Below, one piece after another: positions 18,074-63,471 of a stretch of 64,000 nucleotides of DNA. Made by a program: the position numbers and the translations under genes. The stretch spans positions 21,676 to 85,675 of IMG/VR virus record IMGVR_UViG_3300030329_005540; one strand, given 5' to 3'. A model generated the notes under the pieces. It saw only the letters and a program-made list of their open reading frames with translations, was not told where the DNA came from and ran no database searches. Each line of letters opens with the position of its first letter. The stretch's first letter is position 1. The stretch is from a virus.

Positions 18074-18481
18074 TGGTGGAGGCGGCGGGAATCGAACCCG
18101 CGTCTTTAGAACCATCGGCCTAAATATGCTACAAGCTTATCCGGTTTAATACGATACGTGTCTGAAACCGGCAACTTCACGTAAAGTTTGGTCTATCTTT
18201 TTTTAAACTACTGGAGACTCAACCAGACTCAACCAGTGTTTTGCTCGTTATCGACGCCCTAGCTCCTTAACGAGCATCCAGAGTAGGACGGGTAGCTACG
18301 CAGCTACAGCAGCCTCTTCAGCCCAACCAAACTGAGCGAGAATCGCATCAGCTTCGTCAAGCGAAGGAGCCATATCAACATTATTGGCAGTTGAATACCT
18401 TGATAGATGATTTAAGAGGCCGACTATCATCCTCTGCTTGCAATTCGGCGTAAGACCCCAAATCGAATCCAGTACGCCCCC
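18074..18481 (-). ncRNA. ssrA: tmRNA (ssrA) with an unusually long tag
   Basis: A 408-nt tmRNA on the minus strand that rescues stalled ribosomes. The 5' GGGGGCG pairs with the 3' CGCCTCC followed by ACCA, and the encoded CCA is at 18074-18076. The 3' T-arm (GCGGGTTCGATTCCCGC) and the 5' GGATTCGATTT region are typical. The tag frame most likely resumes at GCC (18386-18388), four bases after a conserved-position A, and stops with TAG at 18296-18298. It reads ANNVDMAPSL, DEADAILAQF, GWAEEAAVAA, 30 residues instead of about 10, with a normal AVAA-type degron end. A promoter at 18489-18516 would start transcription exactly at 18481. Confidence 0.95.
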
Positions 18482-42882: not shown

Positions 42883-43482
42883 CTAAATTAATTCAGAAAA
42901 TTGTTTTGATTTAAATTTTGTTTCTAGCATTCTGCGACCCTTTTCGTGTAGGTTGATTGCTGTCTGCGTGCTAACCTTAATTTCTTTTCCTATCTTTTGC
43001 CAAGTCTTTTTTTGCTTAGAGTCAGCAAAATATCGCAGCATAAAAACTTTCTTTATTCTTACGTCTTTCATTTGATCGAGCAGGTTGATAACGTACTCTC
43101 TAAGCTCGTCATTTTTACCGCTCTCGTCTTCTTCGGCTTCGGCCTCTCTATGATAATTAAGCTTGTCGTCTTCCATGCACACATACTTCTTCTCGCCGTT
43201 GATTAAATTAAGGCAGTAGTATCTTGTGAAATTGCCAAGCCAAGTAGAAAATTTAACCTTCTTATCTGGATCAAATTTTAAAATGGATTTATAAATAATG
43301 AAGTCTTTTTCGTTTTTTATATCGTCGTAGGAAATACCATTTGCTGCTAAAGAGGAATGGTATCTTTTGTAGATAGTAAAGCAGAGAGGGGTATGCCTTT
43401 CGATTAGCGCTTTAAGGCTTTCTTCGCAGGATTTTTTCTTTACTTTCTTTATTAAATCTATGTCGTCTTGTTTCCCAACCAC
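42883..43482 (-). CDS. Phage sigma-70-family factor
   Basis: A protein of 199 residues. Region 2-like: LFDYK-type segment is replaced by FIIYKSILKFDPDKKVKFSTWLGNFTRYYCLNLI near residue 62 (region 2.1-2.4 pattern with F-S-T-W-L). Region 4-like: the helix-turn-helix KTWQKIGKEIKVSTQTAINLHEKGRRMLE near residue 158. An acidic linker separates the two. It should redirect host RNA polymerase to a phage promoter class, possibly one of the two motifs described here (inference). Confidence 0.85.
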   Translation of the reverse strand: MVGKQDDIDLIKKVKKKSCEESLKALIERHTPLCFTIYKRYHSSLAANGISYDDIKNEKDFIIYKSILKFDPDKKVKFSTWLGNFTRYYCLNLINGEKKYVCMEDDKLNYHREAEAEEDESGKNDELREYVINLLDQMKDVRIKKVFMLRYFADSKQKKTWQKIGKEIKVSTQTAINLHEKGRRMLETKFKSKQFSELI

Positions 43483-53133: not shown

Positions 53134-53292
53134 ATGACTGATAAGAAAAAATATTACGTTATAGTTTCTAGCGACAAAAAATATACCCACGGAGCCTTCG
53201 AGTATTCCCCAGAAGGCTTGCAAAAAGCAAAAGACTACATAAAAGTTATTTCAATTAGATCAGATGAAAAATTCAAAATCATCGAAAAATAA
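53134..53292 (+). CDS. Small protein of 52 residues
   Basis: Starts at ATG 53134 and overlaps the sigma-factor start by 29 nt. The sequence (KKYYVIVSSDKKYTHGAFEYS...) looks like a small beta-alpha domain. The family is unknown. It was too short for automatic calling but has a good frame and fits the gene spacing. Confidence 0.5.
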   Translation: MTDKKKYYVIVSSDKKYTHGAFEYSPEGLQKAKDYIKVISIRSDEKFKIIEK

Positions 53293-53995
53293 AGAAGCCG
53301 AAGAAGCTAAAAAATTAGAGAAGGAACTAGTCAATCGTTGTAAACTAGGCGACCCTCTAGCCTTTGATCAATTAATGAAAATTAATGGAGCCAAAATAAA
53401 AGGTTGGTGCATGAAATATTGTGCAGAAAATCAGTCTCAGGTCGATGAGGTTTATCAATTGACCATGATTAAATGTTGGAATAAAATTTCTCAATTCAAA
53501 GGTACTTCAAGCTTTTTAACTTGGGCTAACGCCATAGCAAGAAATAATTTTTACGATATAAAACGCGCTGAAGCACGTCGCATTTTTCTTTCTATGGATG
53601 CTTCATACCCATCAGCCTACGCCACTGGCTTCCGCACCGACAGCGACATGAGCGGCAGCAGCAGCATCGGCGGCAACGCTGGCCTCGCGCTCTCTGCTAC
53701 CAATCAGCTTAAATATTGTGGATACGACGTAGAAGAGTCTTCTGTCGCGAATACCATAGATGACCCCCGTGGCGAAACCCTTGGAAAAGAAAGCAAGAAA
53801 ACAAATGAAGAAGCCGCCGAAAGGATTCTTAGTAAATTATCTGTAGACCACAGCAGAGTTTTGAGGATGTTCGAGTACGACGAATTAACTTATAGCCAGA
53901 TCGCTGAAAAGCTGGGAGTATCAGAAGGCACGGTGATGTCTAGGATATATTATGCCAGAAAGAACGGTAAAAAATATTTACCTATTAAGAAATAG
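53264..53995 (+). CDS. ECF-like sigma factor
   Basis: A protein of 243 residues. Region 2: GDPLAFDQLMKINGAKIKGWC near residue 31 and QFKGTSSFLTWANAIARNNFYDIKR near 83 (F-L-T-W-L-type segment with I-A-R-N). A Ser/Gly-rich insert of about 60 residues follows. Region 4: LSVDHSRVLRMFEYDELTYSQIAEKLGVSEGTVMSRIYYARK near 195 is a clear ECF helix-turn-helix (described as two blocks). It is a second sigma factor in the window and may read one of the two phage promoter classes. Confidence 0.9.
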   Translation: MKNSKSSKNKEAEEAKKLEKELVNRCKLGDPLAFDQLMKINGAKIKGWCMKYCAENQSQVDEVYQLTMIKCWNKISQFKGTSSFLTWANAIARNNFYDIKRAEARRIFLSMDASYPSAYATGFRTDSDMSGSSSIGGNAGLALSATNQLKYCGYDVEESSVANTIDDPRGETLGKESKKTNEEAAERILSKLSVDHSRVLRMFEYDELTYSQIAEKLGVSEGTVMSRIYYARKNGKKYLPIKK

Positions 53996-55448: not shown

Positions 55449-55477
55449 TTGCTCTTTTTAAAAAAAATCGGTATAAT
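55449..55477 (+). promoter_or_regulatory. Promoter of the metabolic cassette
   Basis: TTGCTC at 55449-55454, 17 nt, perfect TATAAT at 55472-55477, then 7 nt to the ATG. The class A spacer element is replaced by AAAAA. Confidence 0.7.
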
Positions 55478-55484
55478 AAATTGT

Positions 55485-56057
55485 ATGAGGCTGGATCACA
55501 TTGCATATCGAGCAAAAGATAGATACAAGACAGCAAAGTTTTTTCAAGATTGTCTAGGGTATTCTATTGGTGTAGAATTTGATTTAAAATTCGATGATGG
55601 CAGCACAACAGATTGCCTCGCTTTAGTACCGCCTGAAACCCGCCATCCTGAAACTCATATGTGGAAATATAATATTTTAATGGGTGTTAATTATGCGGGG
55701 CCGGGAGACGAGTTAGACAATGTAAAATGCGAGTATCATGCCGCGCCAGAAATTTTTGTTAGCGATGGCGAGAAAGGTTCTATTGTAGGAGATTGGGTAG
55801 ATGAACGGGGAGGCGTAGGCGGAGTTCATCACATCGCTTATCAAGTAGATGATGTTGAGGCGGTTATGCATTCGTGGAAACAAATGGGCTACGCTGAGTT
55901 TTATTCTGACAAACCGTTAGAATGTCCCGGCCTTGTTCAAGTTTTTACCAAACCTTCGGAACTAACAGGGGTTATTTATGAACTTATTAAAAGAGATGGT
56001 AAAGGATTTTGTGAAGATAATGTCAAAGGACTTATGGAAAGCACGAGGAAACTATAA
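55485..56057 (+). CDS. VOC/glyoxalase-fold protein
   Basis: A protein of 190 residues from the ATG at 55485, fixed by the promoter 7 nt upstream; an upstream ATG would add 12 residues. RLDHIAYRAKDRYKTAKFF opens the first beta-alpha-beta-beta-beta unit with a His ligand, and GGVHHIAYQVDDVEAVMHSW near residue 120 opens the second, followed by YELIKRD with a Glu ligand. It has the metal site of glyoxalases and dioxygenases. Its place before an aldehyde dehydrogenase points to a small-molecule pathway. Overlapping start of the next gene follows two bases later. Confidence 0.85.
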   Translation: MRLDHIAYRAKDRYKTAKFFQDCLGYSIGVEFDLKFDDGSTTDCLALVPPETRHPETHMWKYNILMGVNYAGPGDELDNVKCEYHAAPEIFVSDGEKGSIVGDWVDERGGVGGVHHIAYQVDDVEAVMHSWKQMGYAEFYSDKPLECPGLVQVFTKPSELTGVIYELIKRDGKGFCEDNVKGLMESTRKL

Positions 56058-56058
56058 T

Positions 56059-57594
56059 ATGAGAGATTTTGAAGGAAGAAATTATATCGACGGTAAATGG
56101 GAGTGCCCAGCCGAAATGTACACCAAAATAAATCCTGCCACCGGCAAGGCGCAGGGAGCATTTCCGTCTTCGGATAAAGCTGTGGTTCGTAAGGCTCTTT
56201 TATGTGCAAGAAAAGCTTTTAAGAAATGGAGAAAAGTGAGTCGTTTTGTTCGCTCTGACTACATGAACAAAGTGGCTCAATTAATTGAGAGAGACAGGGA
56301 GAAACTAGCCACGGTTATTTCTTTAGAAACAGGCAAAACTTATAATGAAAGCATCGCAGAAGTCAACGAGGCTCTTCATATGGCCCAGTTTGCCTTCGGG
56401 TCGGGACGTTATTCTCATGGTGAAGCGGTTGCGTCTGAAATTCAAGATAAAGATTCTTACATGCTTCGTAAGCCTAAAGGTGTAATAGCTATTGTAACGC
56501 CTTTTAATTTCCCGTTGGCTATTGGCATGTTTTGGAATGCTGCGCCAGCGTTGGTAGAGGGAAACACAATTGTAATAAAACCAAGTGAAGACGCTCCGAT
56601 GTCAACTCAAATGGCTGTACAGCTTTATGCAGAAGCTGGCATCCCACGTGGCGTCATTAATTTGGTTCATGGCGATGGTGTCGCTGGTGACGCTTTGGTT
56701 CGTGGCGATTGTGATCATATTTGCTTCACTGGTAGTGCCGATGTCGGACAGCATATTCGTAAAGTGGCTGCTGAGTCTTGGCATAAAACTACCTCTTGTG
56801 AGTTAGGAAGTAAATCTGCTTGCATTATTTTCAATGACGTTGAAATGGATTTAGCGGTTGAAGCCGCTGTCGCCAGCGCATTCAAACTCTCCGGCCAGAG
56901 ATGTGTTTCTTCGGGGCGCATGATTGTGCAGAGAAGCATTGTTGACGAATTTGCTAGGCGATTCACGCAAGAAGCCGTTAAGCTCAAAACGGGTAATCCA
57001 TTTAAAAAAATTCCCTGCACTACTGGAATGCCCGAAGCTATCTGCTGGGATGAAATGGTTCCAGACGAGAGTGTTTACTATGGCCCAATTATTAACCAGC
57101 AAGGTTTTGCTAAAATAAGGAAATACAATAAGAACGTTTTTGATGATCCTCAAGCAGAGGTTCTTTTATCACCCGTGTACACAGGTGAGGGGAACAGCTA
57201 TTATAGCACTCCAATGGTTTACAAAACAGAGTGGAGAGGTGTCGAAGCGCCCTACCTCAGAGATGAGGTCTTTGGCCCCCATGTAGCAATTATTCCATTC
57301 GACACATTGGAAGATGCCATTCGTATCTATAACGATACTGAATACGGGCTTGCCGTTGGTGTTTTAACTAACGACTTCAGAAAAGCCAGAGTGCTGCGAG
57401 ACGAATGCGATGCCGGTATGATTTATTGGAATGGTGGTTCTATCGCTGCTGAATCACATCTCGCGTTTGGAGGAGTAAAGAAATCGGGCAACGGATTCCC
57501 TAGCGCCGCTAGGACATTCCGAGCCGTAACACACGAAATAAGTTGGACTGTAAATCATGCAGACAGACTGACTTTCCCACAGGGTATGAAATAA
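56059..57594 (+). CDS. NAD-dependent aldehyde dehydrogenase (ALDH7-like)
   Basis: A protein of 511 residues from the ATG at 56059, two bases after the VOC stop; upstream in-frame ATGs would lie inside that gene. Standard ALDH motifs: IAIVTPFNFPLAIGMFWNAAP near residue 145, ITFTGS-type HICFTGSADVGQ near 226, TTSCELGSKSACIIF (catalytic Glu) near 248 and LSGQRCVSSGRM (catalytic Cys) near 283, and YWNGGSIAAESHLAFGGVKKSG near 457. Related ALDH7 enzymes oxidise alpha-aminoadipic semialdehyde. A lysine-dehydrogenase-like gene three genes downstream would supply that substrate (inference). Confidence 0.9.
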   Translation: MRDFEGRNYIDGKWECPAEMYTKINPATGKAQGAFPSSDKAVVRKALLCARKAFKKWRKVSRFVRSDYMNKVAQLIERDREKLATVISLETGKTYNESIAEVNEALHMAQFAFGSGRYSHGEAVASEIQDKDSYMLRKPKGVIAIVTPFNFPLAIGMFWNAAPALVEGNTIVIKPSEDAPMSTQMAVQLYAEAGIPRGVINLVHGDGVAGDALVRGDCDHICFTGSADVGQHIRKVAAESWHKTTSCELGSKSACIIFNDVEMDLAVEAAVASAFKLSGQRCVSSGRMIVQRSIVDEFARRFTQEAVKLKTGNPFKKIPCTTGMPEAICWDEMVPDESVYYGPIINQQGFAKIRKYNKNVFDDPQAEVLLSPVYTGEGNSYYSTPMVYKTEWRGVEAPYLRDEVFGPHVAIIPFDTLEDAIRIYNDTEYGLAVGVLTNDFRKARVLRDECDAGMIYWNGGSIAAESHLAFGGVKKSGNGFPSAARTFRAVTHEISWTVNHADRLTFPQGMK

Positions 57595-57779
57595 TGAAAT
57601 ATTACTATACAGTAGAACAGCGAACTATGATGGGCTGGACGGAAGTGGCCGCTTTTACAGAAGAGTTCAACGCTCAGAAGCATGAAGCGGAGTTCAATGT
57701 CGGGTCGATGGTTAACCCTACTAGAATTCAGAAAAAAGAATTTTTAGATTACATGTATGAAGACGATTATAATGAATAA
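57594..57779 (+). CDS. Small protein of 61 residues
   Basis: Starts with an ATG that shares one base with the ALDH stop (TAATG). Acidic, aromatic (KYYYTVEQRTMMGWTEVAAF). Function unknown. Confidence 0.55.
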   Translation: MKYYYTVEQRTMMGWTEVAAFTEEFNAQKHEAEFNVGSMVNPTRIQKKEFLDYMYEDDYNE

Positions 57780-58532
57780 ATGAATGATCATCCAGAAGCA
57801 TCACAGAATCAGGAATTTCATGAGTCGAAACAATTTGCAGCGGATAACCAGTTCGTTGTATTAGTTGACATAGATGAAACTGTTTGTTTTTACGGAGAAA
57901 AACGCCGTTACGATTTAGCCGAGCCAAATCATGAAAATATAGCTAAAATAAATAAGCTCTATGACGAAGGCTGGTATGTTATATATTGGACAGCGAGAGG
58001 AGGCTCAGAAAAGTCCAAGGCGGCGGGTAGATGTTATTATGATTTTACATGGAATCAATTAATATCATGGGGCTGTAAATTTCACGATTTGTCCACGGGT
58101 TCTAAAGGAAAATATATAAAGCCCGCTTGCGATCTAGTTATTGACGACAAGTCCAAAAGGATCGAGGAGGTGGGAGAAGCGGGCTGGCAAGATTTGGCTC
58201 CAGAAATCTGTCGTCAGAGAATGGTAGTCGAAGGCACTCTCCACAACGCTTTTGCTCCTGAAGATCAAATTAGATACTGCAAAGAAATCTCTAAAGTATT
58301 AGACATGACTCCGGTTTCAGAGCCTACAACGGATTTCGCTAAAGACTACGGGTGGTGTTGCTTCATGCATTGGAAAGAGTCAGGTATGCATATCTATAGC
58401 TGGGATCATAGAAGCCCCAAGTTTTTTTCAATTGATATTTATACTTGTAAATCATTTAAAGAAGAAGACGTAATTAGATATACGCGAGAATTTTTCAAAG
58501 AGAATTTAATAGAAGTGACTTGGAAGGACTAG
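57780..58532 (+). CDS. HAD phosphatase-like domain fused to SpeD-like AdoMet decarboxylase
   Basis: A protein of 250 residues. Residues 25-130 are HAD-like: VVLVDIDETVCFYG with the D30-x-D32 pair, YWTARGG, and CDLVIDDKSKRI with an acidic motif IV. Residues 150-250 resemble AdoMet decarboxylase: RMVVEGTLHNA, then a segment ending HWKESGMHIYSWD (E200-S201, where the family is cleaved to make the pyruvoyl group), then SIDIYTCKSF. The usual E-S-H sequence reads E-S-G. It probably makes decarboxylated AdoMet for polyamines. I have not seen this fusion described; it lies right after the ALDH gene pair. Confidence 0.7.
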   Translation: MNDHPEASQNQEFHESKQFAADNQFVVLVDIDETVCFYGEKRRYDLAEPNHENIAKINKLYDEGWYVIYWTARGGSEKSKAAGRCYYDFTWNQLISWGCKFHDLSTGSKGKYIKPACDLVIDDKSKRIEEVGEAGWQDLAPEICRQRMVVEGTLHNAFAPEDQIRYCKEISKVLDMTPVSEPTTDFAKDYGWCCFMHWKESGMHIYSWDHRSPKFFSIDIYTCKSFKEEDVIRYTREFFKENLIEVTWKD

Positions 58533-58533
58533 A

Positions 58534-58704
58534 ATGAGAGACGCTAGAGATAATCAGATACAAGATTTATATGTTTTAATAAATACCATGCAGACGAATA
58601 TGCAGACTCTTTATTCTTATTTGCCTGAAGAGAAAAAGAAAGAAGTAGAAACCCCTAGTTATAAATGGTGCATGAATTGGAAACCCGGAGACGAAAGCAA
58701 ATAA
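58534..58704 (+). CDS. Small protein of 56 residues
   Basis: An ATG two bases after the previous stop and a stop eight bases before the next start make a tight fit in the operon. Residues: a helical start (NQIQDLYVLINTMQTNMQTLYS) and a Trp-containing end (SYKWCMNWKPGD). No family recognised. Confidence 0.5.
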   Translation: MRDARDNQIQDLYVLINTMQTNMQTLYSYLPEEKKKEVETPSYKWCMNWKPGDESK

Positions 58705-58711
58705 AGTTAGC

Positions 58712-59365
58712 ATGAAGTTGCTACAGTTACATAAAATAGACGAAAAATTTATGGAAGACGTAAAAGATTCGTTTAACAGACTGCCTGAAACAGATCATAA
58801 AGACGGCAAATATAGACTGCGTAGATATTCGGTTGTCGAATACAATCCTAACCTCGCGGTATTTAATTGTTTAACTGAAAACGATGTTAAAGTTCTTCCC
58901 CATAGAGATTTTTTACAAAGCGAGGATTTAAATGAACACCAAGGCGGGTTTACTCGATCTTTTGAAGATATAGAGCCTTCAGTTCTACAGAGTATAGGAA
59001 TGAAAGAAATTTTCTGGACGTTTTACAATGAAAATAATTTAAAAGAGTCGCAAGAGATAGAGATTCATCAGATGAGAGTAGTTACTCAAGAGGACGGCAC
59101 GGCGCAAGTGGCTCCCGAAGGAGTTCACCAAGACGGGTTCGATCACATAGCCATGATTGGAGTGAATAGGCATAATATAAGCGGTGGAGAATTGATGGTT
59201 TATAAAAATAAAGACGAGAAACAGTTCGTCTCTTATGCTCTCAAATCTGGAGAGATTATAATGTTAAAAGACAACGTGGTTTGGCATAACGCTAAATCAA
59301 TATCAAATATTAATAAAAACGAAATAGGATGGGGGGATTGGTTCGTTCTGTGCGCCAATGAATAA
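58712..59365 (+). CDS. 2-oxoglutarate/Fe(II) dioxygenase, isoleucine-dioxygenase-like
   Basis: A protein of 217 residues. The iron triad is visible: GVHQDGFDHIAM near residue 135 (H-x-D) and DNVVWHNAKSI near 190 (distal His), with RHNISGGELMVY between them. This order matches the 2OG-Fe_Oxy_2 family (PF10014), whose members hydroxylate free amino acids such as isoleucine. In this operon a free amino acid, perhaps lysine or a derivative, is a plausible substrate. Confidence 0.8.
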   Translation: MKLLQLHKIDEKFMEDVKDSFNRLPETDHKDGKYRLRRYSVVEYNPNLAVFNCLTENDVKVLPHRDFLQSEDLNEHQGGFTRSFEDIEPSVLQSIGMKEIFWTFYNENNLKESQEIEIHQMRVVTQEDGTAQVAPEGVHQDGFDHIAMIGVNRHNISGGELMVYKNKDEKQFVSYALKSGEIIMLKDNVVWHNAKSISNINKNEIGWGDWFVLCANE

Positions 59366-59368
59366 ATT

Positions 59369-60475
59369 ATGAAAGCATTAGTTTTAGGAGTAGGTAGGAT
59401 GGGAACTGCTATCGCTTATGCGATGGATCAATTTGGGTTTGAAGTCACTGGCATGGACGCTAATCCAGACGCGGCAAATAATATGCCATCTGGAGGTAAA
59501 TTTTTTGTTGTAGATGATGATCTGAGAGTGTCAATGGTAACACAGGTACAAGCAAAGCCTGATATTGTTATCAGCAGTTTGCCTTATCACCAAACACAGG
59601 TTGTCGGAAAGTGGTGTGCTGATAATGAGGTGCGCTATTGCGATTTAGGTGGTCGAGTTGATGTCTCACAAAATATAAATACTCACGCAAAAGAGAAAGC
59701 TAAGAAACCTATATTCACAGATTTGGGTTTAGCCCCCGGTTGGGTTAATATATTAGCTGAAGAAGGATGTAGGCAGCTACATCATAAAATCGAAAACGTA
59801 AAGATGATGGTGGGAGGTCTGCCAGCTATACCTAGCAACCCGCCCCTGAACTACGCAATAACATGGTCTGTTGATGGTCTTATTAATGAGTATAGAGACG
59901 ATTGCTTGACTCTAGAGAATGGGGAAGTGAAAACAGTTAAAGGAATGGATGGTCTTGAGAAGGTTGACTTTAGCTTTTTAGAGGGAGAAGAGTTAGAAGC
60001 GTTTTATACAAGCGGTGGCGCATCTCATACAATAGAAGCCATGAAGGCGCGAGGGGTTGAAAATTGTAGTTATAAGACTATTCGTTATAAAGGACACAGA
60101 GATGTTATTAGATTTTTAATTCGTAATGCAAATTTAGAAGAGGAGTGCTTGAGAAGCATTTTCGAGACAGGGTGTACTATTGAAGACCCTCGCTTGCAGG
60201 GGGATATAGTTTTAATAAAGGCCATAGTCAAGGGCGAAAATACCACTTGGGAAAAAGATGTTATCGTTGGTTTCGATCAACAATTTAGTGCGATGCAGAA
60301 AGCAACGGCCTTTTCTATCTCCAGCGTAGCTAAAATGATGGCCGAAGGATTTTTTGACGATAGAGTAGAGCAAAACAGGGGCGGGGATGTTAGACTTCCA
60401 GTGGTTCTCAATTATAGAGATGTTCCTTATGACGAGTTTACTAAAAATCTTGGATTATTAGGAATTAGTGCTTGA
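59369..60475 (+). CDS. Lysine 6-dehydrogenase/saccharopine dehydrogenase-like protein
   Basis: A protein of 368 residues. VLGVGRMGTAIAYAMDQFGFE is the NAD-binding loop, then FTDLGLAPGWVNILAEEG near residue 113, VGGLPAIPSNPPLNYAITWSVDGLINEY near 150 (shown as two blocks), AFYTSGGASHT near 210 and SYKTIRYKGHRDVIRFL near 231. These blocks occur in bacterial L-lysine 6-dehydrogenases, which oxidise lysine to alpha-aminoadipate 6-semialdehyde. The length also fits that single-domain group and not full saccharopine dehydrogenases. The ALDH upstream could take the product to alpha-aminoadipate. Confidence 0.82.
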   Translation: MKALVLGVGRMGTAIAYAMDQFGFEVTGMDANPDAANNMPSGGKFFVVDDDLRVSMVTQVQAKPDIVISSLPYHQTQVVGKWCADNEVRYCDLGGRVDVSQNINTHAKEKAKKPIFTDLGLAPGWVNILAEEGCRQLHHKIENVKMMVGGLPAIPSNPPLNYAITWSVDGLINEYRDDCLTLENGEVKTVKGMDGLEKVDFSFLEGEELEAFYTSGGASHTIEAMKARGVENCSYKTIRYKGHRDVIRFLIRNANLEEECLRSIFETGCTIEDPRLQGDIVLIKAIVKGENTTWEKDVIVGFDQQFSAMQKATAFSISSVAKMMAEGFFDDRVEQNRGGDVRLPVVLNYRDVPYDEFTKNLGLLGISA

Positions 60476-60500
60476 CAAATAATAAAGCGTTTGTAATAAT
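60472..60500 (+). promoter_or_regulatory. Class A promoter for GMP reductase
   Basis: TTGACA at 60472-60477 overlapping the previous stop codon, 6 nt, AAAGC at 60484-60488, then a TAATAAT box at 60494-60500 and 8 nt to the ATG. Confidence 0.75.
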
Positions 60501-60508
60501 TAATTCAA

Positions 60509-61627
60509 ATGCGAATAGAGTCAGAAATTAAACTCGATTACAAAGATGTTTTATTTCGCCCCAAACGATCTACGCTGACTTCTCGAAGCGAAGTAGGCTT
60601 AATGCGTGAGTTTACGTTCCCAAACGTAGAGACAGCTACTTGGAAAGGGGTTCCAATCGCTGCCGCAAACATGGACACGGTTGGGACTTTTGAAATGGCA
60701 AAAGCTCTTGCCCAACATCATATGCTTACTTGCATGAGTAAACATTTTGATTTAAAAAAGTGGCTTCATAAAATGAATGGTTATGGAGTTTATAAGTCTC
60801 CAGAGCAAAGAGAAGGCGGGGTTTGGGAACACAACCCAGATTCAAGATGTTCACACAATAGAATTTATGAACACATGGCTGTATCTTGCGGCATAAAAGA
60901 TGAAGATTTGGATTATTTAGATATGATATTACGCCAGTTTTACTGGCTTAAATTTATTTGTATTGACGCAGCTAACGGCTATACTGCTAAGTTTTGCGAT
61001 TTTGTAAAAAGAGTTAGAGGCCAATACCCCAATCATATTATAATAGCTGGTAATGTTGTTTCGGGAGAAATGACCGAGGAGATTATATTGAGTGGAGCAG
61101 ATATTGTCAAAGTTGGTATTGGTGGCGGGAGCGTCTGCACTACTCGCATACAAACTGGTGTCGGCTACCCCCAACTCTCAGCAGTTATCGAGTGTGCGGA
61201 TGCGGCTCACGGTCTTAACGGTCATATTATGGCTGACGGCGGTTGTGTCTGCGCTGGTGATATTGCCAAAGCTTTTGGCGGCGGGGCTGATTTTGTTATG
61301 CTCGGCGGTATGCTGGCGGGACATACTGAATCTGCTGGACAAGAAGAAGAAGTAGAAGGCGTTAAATATAAGACTTTTTACGGCATGAGTTCTGATACGG
61401 CTATGAAGAAGCACCACGGTGGCGTGGCAAGCTATCGTTCTTCAGAGGGAAAGACGATAAGAGTAAAACATCGTGGACTTGTTAAAAATACCGTAGAAGA
61501 CATTTTAGGAGGAGTGCGCTCTACCTGTACTTATATCGGTGCGAGGCAAATAAAAGACATGCCGAAGTGCGCCACATTCGTCAGAGTTACGCAGCAATCA
61601 AATGAGATTTTTGGCAAAAATGTCTAA
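60509..61627 (+). CDS. guaC: GMP reductase
   Basis: A protein of 372 residues of the IMPDH/GMPR barrel family. [16 protein letters not shown] at the N-terminus, [16 protein letters not shown] near residue 50, [14 protein letters not shown] near 150, [21 protein letters not shown] near 198 (catalytic Cys in G-S-V-C-T) and [14 protein letters not shown] near 255 are typical of GMP reductases. No CBS domain insert is seen, which separates it from most IMPDHs. It converts GMP to IMP and may divert the host nucleotide pool. Confidence 0.95.
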
Positions 61628-61853: not shown

Positions 61854-62366
61854 ATGATATACACACTATATGGTCAGCCAGCGTCAGGAAAGACCACTTT
61901 AGGGCGCATATTAGCGGATTACCTTAATACCCCTTTCGTTATTGATGGAGATGAATTCCGAGAGATGTTTACTAATAAAAATTATGGTAGACAGGGCCGA
62001 GAAGAAAATATTAGAAACGCCAACGCAGTAGCGACTTATTTAAATAAAAAAGGAGAACGCGACGATTGGGCGGCGATTTATTGCAAAGATAAAAGCGGTA
62101 ACAGTATTCAAGGTCGCCCAGTTGGGAGTGGCACAGATGTGGTGATGTGCTTAGTAAATCCTTACGAGCATTTAAGAAAAGAACTCAAAAATAACAATCA
62201 AGATAAAGTCATGGAAATATATTTAAAGTCTACTAGAGAGTTGAGAAAAGATTATCATGTAGAAGATTTTGAAATAGGAAGCCCTGACCACATGATTTTA
62301 ACGGATGGAGAATTGGATAATACTTGGGCAGAGCTATGGGCTTGCGTAGAGAAAGAAGAATTATGA
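61854..62366 (+). CDS. Adenylylsulfate (APS) kinase-like protein
   Basis: A protein of 170 residues. YGQPASGKTTLGRILADYL is the P-loop, FVIDGDEFREMF the D-G-D-x-x-R block, and YGRQGREENIRNANAVATYL near residue 43 the APS-binding region (R-x-x-N-I-R). The middle carries an insert, GERDDWAAIYCKDKSGNS, not seen in standard CysC. It phosphorylates adenylylsulfate to PAPS, the donor for the two sulfotransferases in the glycan operon. ATP sulfurylase is not in the window. Confidence 0.82.
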   Translation: MIYTLYGQPASGKTTLGRILADYLNTPFVIDGDEFREMFTNKNYGRQGREENIRNANAVATYLNKKGERDDWAAIYCKDKSGNSIQGRPVGSGTDVVMCLVNPYEHLRKELKNNNQDKVMEIYLKSTRELRKDYHVEDFEIGSPDHMILTDGELDNTWAELWACVEKEEL

Positions 62367-62845
62367 CAACTTTTACAAAATGGTTTCTATTAAACGCCGT
62401 AATGTTTACTGCGATTTATTTCGCTGAAACCAAAGGGGCAATTTCATTAATGGTTAAAAATGACGTTAGCTATTTGACTATAGTTATTATGACTTTATAT
62501 GTAGTCATTTCGGTAATGGTCGGAAGGCTATGTTATTTATGTGATAAAATTTCAAAGGACTCAAAAAAAGCAAAAAAAGAAAAAACATATTTATCGAAAC
62601 GCGCCGAAGTAGGCTGGTTCGCTGCCGAACATTTTTTCTCTTTGGGCCTTTTGGGTACAGTTTTTGGACTATGCGTTGCCACGGCTACTAATTTAAACGC
62701 CGAAGCACAAGTTAGCGACATCGTGTCTGGCCTGAAAGAAGGTTTACACACAGCGTTCTATACGACTATTTGCGGTATTGTATTTAGTTTGCCTTTACAG
62801 GCTCAATTGATGATTTTGAGATTTAAAGTAGAGGATAATCAATAA
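62363..62845 (+). CDS. ExbB/TolQ/MotA-like proton channel protein
   Basis: A protein of 160 residues from the ATG at 62363, which shares ATGA with the kinase stop. Three membrane segments: TKWFLLNAVMFTAIYFA near the N-terminus, YLTIVIMTLYVVISVMVG, and the pair FFSLGLLGTVFGLCVATATNL and TAFYTTICGIVFSLPLQAQL. The G-L-L-G-T-V-x-G and T-A-F-Y-T-T-x-x-G motifs are those of the MotA/TolQ/ExbB family. It should form a proton-driven channel with the next protein. Confidence 0.88.
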   Translation: MTTFTKWFLLNAVMFTAIYFAETKGAISLMVKNDVSYLTIVIMTLYVVISVMVGRLCYLCDKISKDSKKAKKEKTYLSKRAEVGWFAAEHFFSLGLLGTVFGLCVATATNLNAEAQVSDIVSGLKEGLHTAFYTTICGIVFSLPLQAQLMILRFKVEDNQ

Positions 62846-62862: not shown

Positions 62863-63471
62863 GTGAATATTAATAGAGGCTATAAAAAGTTTTTTTCTTT
62901 TAGACCATTCATCGACGTACTGTTTTGCTGTTTGTTGATGTTGGTTGCTATTTTATTTCTTTTAAAAAGCTCCGAAGAAAAAACAAAGATGCGTCCCCCC
63001 AATGTTTTGTATGAGGTTATATTGACTTGGGACGGAAACAGTGAAGATGATTTAGACATCTACGTTCAATCAGCGTCAGGACACGTTGTAAGTTTCAATA
63101 ATAGAGAAGGCGGCGAAGGAAGCTTGGTCAGCTTAAATCATGATGCGCTTGGCAAATCTCGAAATAATAGTTTAAATGTGGACGCTGAAGGAAAGGTGGT
63201 TGGATTTAACGAGGAGATAGTGGCCTTTCGAGGAGTCGTAGAGGGGGAGAACATTGTTAATGTCCATGTCTATTCCAAAAAAGATCAAGAGCCTATCGAG
63301 GCGACAATTATTCTCATAAAAGTTAAGCCTTACAAAGAAATAGTTTCAAAGAAAAGAGTTTTCGCGGCCACGGGTGAAGAAAAGACCGCATTTCGCTTTA
63401 AGACGGATAAAAATGGAGAAGTCGTAGAAGTTAATGAACTTCCAGCGAGTTTACTTAATCCTCTTGAATAG
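62863..63471 (+). CDS. ExbD/TolR-like protein with C-terminal DUF2135-like domain
   Basis: A protein of 202 residues with a GTG start. Its single membrane helix FFSFRPFIDVLFCCLLMLVAILFLL carries the P-F-I-D-V motif of ExbD/TolR, with the proton-binding Asp at residue 18. The periplasmic part VILTWDGNSEDDLDIYVQSASGHVV fits the DUF2135 pattern (x-W-x-x-x-x-D-L-D-x-Y-V). Together with the ExbB-like protein it can form a stator that uses the proton gradient. Confidence 0.82.
   Translation: MNINRGYKKFFSFRPFIDVLFCCLLMLVAILFLLKSSEEKTKMRPPNVLYEVILTWDGNSEDDLDIYVQSASGHVVSFNNREGGEGSLVSLNHDALGKSRNNSLNVDAEGKVVGFNEEIVAFRGVVEGENIVNVHVYSKKDQEPIEATIILIKVKPYKEIVSKKRVFAATGEEKTAFRFKTDKNGEVVEVNELPASLLNPLE

Follow-up and report, generated by a model that had tools for sequence, protein, structure and literature searches.

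A VOC, aldehyde dehydrogenase and lysine-6-dehydrogenase-like gene set in uncultured phages: a candidate amino-acid oxidation module

L-lysine 6-dehydrogenase, known structurally from Pyrococcus horikoshii PH1688 (PDB 3ABI), carries out NAD-linked oxidation of the epsilon-amine of lysine, and in Legionella a gene for a lysine-6-dehydrogenase-like (LysDH-like) protein lies directly upstream of one for a true L-piperideine-6-carboxylate (P6C) dehydrogenase. The metabolic genes known from phages are mostly single host-derived enzymes of photosynthesis, nucleotide or sulphur metabolism. Here we describe a LysDH-like gene within a cassette at positions 55485-60475 of a 64,000-bp stretch of viral DNA, hereafter the window, which spans bases 21676-85675 of an 85,675-bp IMG/VR virus record and carries the phage hallmark genes for DNA polymerase, a DnaB-like helicase, exonuclease, RecA, ribonucleotide reductase and two sigma factors. 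The core of the cassette encodes a VOC-fold protein, an aldehyde dehydrogenase (ALDH) and the LysDH-like protein, and it recurs in other phages. We judge the chances to be about even that this core is a phage auxiliary metabolic module that oxidizes the side-chain amine of lysine (or ornithine). A preliminary description of this DNA had considered the gene set new to phages, and we likewise found neither a phage lysine 6-dehydrogenase nor a VOC-ALDH-LysDH set described in the open-access literature.

Relatives of the cassette were gathered by scanning viral contigs from many metagenomes with its HAD-SpeD, ALDH and LysDH proteins. The least biased count of linkage comes from a search in which LysDH was the sole query and which brought up 75 loci. 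Core loci were those with a LysDH at least 41% identical (52 of the 75); 45 of them have at least 5 kb of upstream sequence, and all 45, on other phage contigs, carry ALDH, with VOC present in 33. This search for the gene set in other phages, proposed in the preliminary description, shows a linkage beyond chance. De-replication leaves 40 core loci. In 38 of these, under 5 kb separates the end of ALDH from the LysDH gene downstream of it, and VOC stands immediately before ALDH in 29. The genes between ALDH and LysDH differ among relatives (ClpP, HAD, SpeD, PF10014). Of the 40 loci, 23 have HAD, 9 SpeD, 9 GMP reductase and 3 PF10014. Since HAD, SpeD and PF10014 come and go, the VOC-ALDH-LysDH core appears to be the selected unit. 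The "lysine plus polyamine cassette" proposed earlier had merged this conserved core, which stands, with variable cargo. A ClpP-like protease gene recurs between ALDH and HAD or LysDH in L005, L018, L019, L024, L029, L037 and other loci, and is absent at that spot in the window.

The uncultured phages that bear the cassette are probably marine, and most of their IMG/VR records are fragments. A VOC protein of 50-56% identity is encoded by two huge uncultured phages; one of them also has an ALDH (48%), and the second has instead a LysDH-like protein nearer to cellular LysDH. Apart from these two, LysDH and VOC were not found in 50,697 deposited phage records (E<=1e-5).

We propose a model in which the LysDH-like enzyme would convert a basic amino acid and NAD+ to a semialdehyde (or cyclic imine), NADH and ammonia, the substrate being most likely L-lysine and alternatively L-ornithine. 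The ALDH would then oxidize the semialdehyde to alpha-aminoadipate (or glutamate), yielding a second reducing equivalent as NAD(P)H. The VOC protein, a putative metalloenzyme resembling 4-hydroxyphenylpyruvate dioxygenase (HPPD) and epimerases, may act on this product or on a keto acid derived from it. During infection, such a route would draw reducing power, ammonia and carbon out of host amino acids.

The assignment of the LysDH-like protein (59369-60475, + strand, 368 aa) is well supported. It contains saccharopine dehydrogenase domains (PF16653/PF03435), and within that superfamily it lies closest to L-lysine 6-dehydrogenase by every comparison made: 3ABI is the top PDB match by phmmer (1e-21) and by profile search (8e-35, vs 1e-17 for saccharopine dehydrogenase), and Foldseek with the AlphaFold model (pLDDT 87.8) again places 3ABI first (E 9e-25, TM 0.79-0.87), with saccharopine and carboxyspermidine dehydrogenases behind it. 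The lysine-6-dehydrogenase-like identity given in the preliminary description therefore holds, with activity on the substrate a prediction. NEY and LAPG motifs are present in 62/62 phage LysDHs and TSGG in 60/62; cellular LysDH-like proteins of Rhizobium, Azospirillum, Nitratireductor and Legionella have them too, whereas the two 450-aa saccharopine-dehydrogenase-like proteins compared do not. The longer catalytic-domain motifs TWS..GL.NEY, EAF.TSGG and YKT.RY.GH are likewise common to the phage proteins and cellular LysDH-like proteins, that of Legionella among them. An aspartate (D30) after the GxGxxG motif is compatible with NAD, and the enzyme is predicted to be NAD-dependent. Several of the cellular LysDH-like genes are divergent from an Lrp/AsnC regulator.

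Phage and cellular LysDHs are only distantly connected. The 62 phage sequences stand apart from cellular LysDHs in the tree, with weak support (87/48), one Planctomycetota sequence lies beside the phage group (95/84), and the "phage" label is strongly clustered. Because cellular sampling was narrow (mainly plasmids and two genomes, with four genomes in the phylum-wide sampling of relatives), this does not prove a phage origin of LysDH. A scan of 84,980 genomes with two short motifs, which divergent relatives would escape, matched L046 and L047 alone. L047, in a SAR202 metagenome-assembled genome (MAG), shares 94-98% nucleotide identity with L090/L092; all belong to one phage, and L047 is hence a viral contig in that MAG. 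The tmRNA tags of the MAG, moreover, fail to match the phage tags, and SAR202 was rejected as bacterial source or host. The Planctomycetota match L046 was also set aside, being a distant relative (35%) without the partner genes. It is tempting to speculate that phages evolved a pathway of their own, a large lineage having brought VOC, ALDH and LysDH together as one unit. An LysDH of a phage-dominated group, a non-ALDH7 dehydrogenase and a single-domain HPPD-like protein would then form a combination not used by cells, with a product that may differ from aminoadipate; we offer this tentatively, as a possibility that falls well short of probable.

The ALDH is less easily placed. Its open reading frame (ORF) formally spans 55978-57594 on the + strand, with the first 81 bases within the VOC gene; because of this overlap, and because many relatives begin there, the start codon at 56059, which immediately follows the VOC stop, is most likely the true one, giving a protein of 511 aa (56059-57594). 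It has an Aldedh domain (PF00171, E=1.4e-121), and the catalytic residues N150, E248 and C282 are invariant in 26 phage ALDHs. The "ALDH7-like" label, which would make it an aminoadipate semialdehyde dehydrogenase, is wrong at the family level: the phage protein scores 257 bits on the P6C dehydrogenase model NF050084, against a cut-off of 730, and this model ranks below 13 others, whereas the Legionella control reaches 770 bits.

The identity of the ALDH bears directly on the substrate. In place of lysine, the LysDH-like enzyme could act on L-ornithine or another omega-amino acid, with the ALDH serving as a pyrroline-5-carboxylate (P5C) dehydrogenase and glutamate as the product. In plasmid records, the phage ALDH has its best relatives in haloarchaeal ALDHs (37-39%, E ~1e-125 by direct comparison), which adjoin proline dehydrogenase in 5/5 annotated cases; the nearest cellular ALDHs found are tied to proline transport as well. 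Given this neighbour, the likely substrate of the haloarchaeal enzymes is glutamate semialdehyde, which has one carbon fewer than aminoadipate semialdehyde. The P5C model also scores the phage ALDH slightly above the P6C model (271 vs 257 bits), a difference that means little because these scores are far under their cut-offs. An ALDH of this type could fit either the lysine (C6, P6C) or the ornithine (C5, P5C) route. The ALDH context thus favours ornithine and the LysDH resemblance favours lysine, since both sequence and fold place the LysDH-like protein with L-lysine dehydrogenase, and its Legionella homologue is paired with a true P6C dehydrogenase. On balance, we consider the ornithine route unlikely, although it is the strongest of the alternatives.

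The third member of the core is a VOC-fold protein of 190 aa and a single domain (55485-56057, + strand; PF13669/PF00903). All 27 phage sequences compared keep H5, H115, H116 and E166, of which H5, H116 and E166 are putative metal ligands. A PDB profile search ranks methylmalonyl-CoA epimerase first and HPPD next. The 4HPPD model matches the C-terminal region, where the motif GVIYELIKRDGKGFCEDNVKGLMES resembles the HPPD tail. The protein is nevertheless not an HPPD: it has one domain in place of two VOC halves, and scores 25 bits vs the NCBIfam 4HPPD cut-off of 277. The predicted structure (pLDDT 78.9) superposes poorly on known folds in Foldseek (TM 0.3-0.5), with epimerase and HPPD both among the matches. 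A Bradyrhizobium relative (30%) lies near genes for a nonribosomal peptide synthetase and a pyridoxal-phosphate enzyme.

Several observations weigh against lysine (or ornithine) oxidation by the core. The phage LysDHs share only ~30-33% identity with the LysDH-like proteins of cells, from which they stand apart as a group, and the phage ALDH falls below every specific NCBIfam cut-off. Neither a class III aminotransferase nor the 2-oxoadipate dioxygenase/decarboxylase HglS (PF07063) was found in 8 phage records. Among the distant loci (LysDH <41%), 14/21 are without ALDH, and most of these have no close ALDH across the whole record; the long records G019, G020 and G024 lack both a close ALDH and VOC. 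LysDH may therefore serve another role in these distant members.

A different view of the core is that it is biosynthetic or reductive, working in or supplying a pathway to an unusual amino acid or amine with which glycans of the phage or host, or some other phage product, would be decorated. The window holds a ~20-kb glycan cluster, and GT4-like genes adjoin ALDH-LysDH in distant relatives. The neighbour family near LysDH in distant loci proved on inspection to encode this GT4-like glycosyltransferase rather than a ligase. The cassette also includes a PF10014 2-oxoglutarate-Fe(II) dioxygenase (58712-59365, + strand; E=4.4e-50), confirming the oxygenase named earlier, with BsmA-domain PDB matches and a retained HxD motif. 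Members of this family hydroxylate free L-amino acids (PMC3684760). However, glycan genes are widespread in these phages, no cassette-specific ligase or transferase was seen, and most close relatives have no GT4 neighbour next to the core. A direct PF10014 scan of viral contigs found nothing, the PF10014-bearing relatives having come to light via other cassette genes. We regard a biosynthetic role as improbable.

Polyamine chemistry had been suggested by the HAD-SpeD fusion (57780-58532, + strand; phrog_1238), in which a HAD phosphatase-like part (~residues 1-131) precedes an AdoMet-decarboxylase-like part (~132-250). HAD and SpeD occur together in 8 loci; the fusion is real in the window and in L018, and most relatives have two genes. 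The SpeD-like domain matches PF02675 (E=4e-8), yet reaches 19 bits vs the NCBIfam cut-off of 75.65, and its profile found no match in the PDB. In an ungapped, motif-level comparison of ESGxHxYxW with the SpeD reference motif ESHxxIHTW, Ser and Cys are invariant and the His68 position is Tyr in 14/14 phage sequences. The corresponding processing residues of AdoMet decarboxylase are S63, H68 and C83 in T. maritima numbering (PMC10407285). Spermidine synthase (PF01564) was not found in any of 8 phage records, a set that may include fragments. Because of the Tyr and the missing synthase, production of decarboxylated AdoMet, as the preliminary description had it, is unlikely. Phage SpeDs without AdoMet activity do exist, and some decarboxylate arginine or ornithine instead (PMC9992855, PMC10407285).

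Carboxyspermidine dehydrogenase, which shares the fold of the LysDH-like protein, carries a His-Glu-Glu catalytic motif (PMC10413350). No HEE string is present in the window protein, and a string search, not mapped to the catalytic site, found one in 1/62 phage LysDHs (L077). A polyamine cassette, with SpeD making decarboxylated AdoMet or an amine and the LysDH-like protein acting like a carboxyspermidine or homospermidine synthase, is thus very unlikely despite the adjacent SpeD-like gene: the protein is nearer LysDH by fold and sequence, SpeD is in few core loci, and the fold rank, residues and absent partners led us to reject the carboxyspermidine/homospermidine route.

The five named genes lie on one strand as the preliminary description stated, which ORF and Pfam checks confirm, in the order VOC, ALDH, a 61-aa ORF (57594-57779, without a family match), HAD-SpeD, a 56-aa ORF (58534-58704, without a Pfam match), PF10014 and LysDH-like. 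Spacings of -1 to +7 nt make co-transcription as a single operon plausible. The promoter said to drive it is a weaker claim. A perfect TATAAT stands at 55472-55477, but only 7 nt ahead of the VOC ATG, its -35 box (TTGCTC, 17 nt away) matches at 3/6 positions, and promoter-like sites are not enriched in the region (27 vs 24.4 in shuffles, sd 5.2). Several relatives have AT-rich TATAAT-like stretches just 5' of the VOC start; in others the upstream gene abuts VOC.

The next gene downstream encodes a GMP reductase (60509-61627, + strand), which passes the NCBIfam equivalog model NF003470 (527 bits vs a cut-off of 397). It begins 33 nt after LysDH, and has its own strong promoter-like site at 60472-60500 (TTGACA-17-AATAAT); most relatives do not have it close to LysDH. 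GMP reductase releases ammonia, so nitrogen scavenging by the cassette together with this enzyme is possible, although we offer it as an idea. In some distant relatives, L110 and L116 among them, the GMP reductase gene immediately precedes the LysDH-like one at a distance of 31-60 nt; L116 has no ALDH.

Other features of the window deserve mention. A MotA/ExbB-like proton-channel protein (62324-62845, + strand) is followed by an uncharacterised protein (62863-63471, + strand), and members of both families appear again in 12 related loci. The glycan biosynthesis cluster, at ~20-42 kb on the - strand, encodes a sugar epimerase, a DegT aminotransferase, a GHMP kinase, a capsule-synthesis protein and several glycosyltransferases. 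The two sigma factors are of different types (42883-43482, - strand; 53264-53995, + strand). A complete tmRNA gene (18074-18481, - strand; Rfam 136 bits) specifies an unusually long 30-aa tag, ANNVDMAPSLDEADAILAQFGWAEEAAVAA. Tags of the related phage records L148, L149 and L150 share the core APS-x-x-EADxILAxxGxxEE...AA, whereas the two tmRNAs of the SAR202 MAG have short tags that differ from those of the phages.

If the proposed oxidation takes place, phages would be actively consuming the amino acids of their hosts to obtain NADH and ammonia. The core would be a conserved multi-enzyme module, widespread in uncultured phages yet almost missing from deposited phage records, and its three soluble enzymes are amenable to direct assay.

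How the cassette sits among described systems depends on the gene considered. Like the SpeD-derived arginine and ornithine decarboxylases of aquatic phages (PMC9992855), the SpeD-like proteins here are small and come from phages that are probably aquatic, but they differ in the Tyr at the His68 position, the lack of a PDB profile match and, in the window, the fusion to HAD. The PF10014 protein shares family and HxD motif with the L-isoleucine dioxygenases IDO and HilB (PMC3684760), although it is optional in the cassette and may act on another substrate. For the core, the haloarchaeal ALDHs encoded next to proline dehydrogenase (L131, L132, L161-L163) are 37-39% identical to the phage ALDH over its full length, yet stand in a proline context with no LysDH or VOC seen nearby. 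The L-lysine 6-dehydrogenase 3ABI (EC 1.4.1.18) has the length, fold and catalytic-domain motifs of the phage LysDH, together with the Rossmann GxGxxG and an NAD-fitting acidic residue, but is ~25% identical to it, and the phage proteins, putative lysine dehydrogenases, form their own group. A parallel in logic is offered by Legionella adelaidensis (L138), whose LysDH-like and P6C dehydrogenase genes are adjacent and would pair the same two activities; in the phages, the ALDH belongs to another subfamily and a VOC gene has been added.

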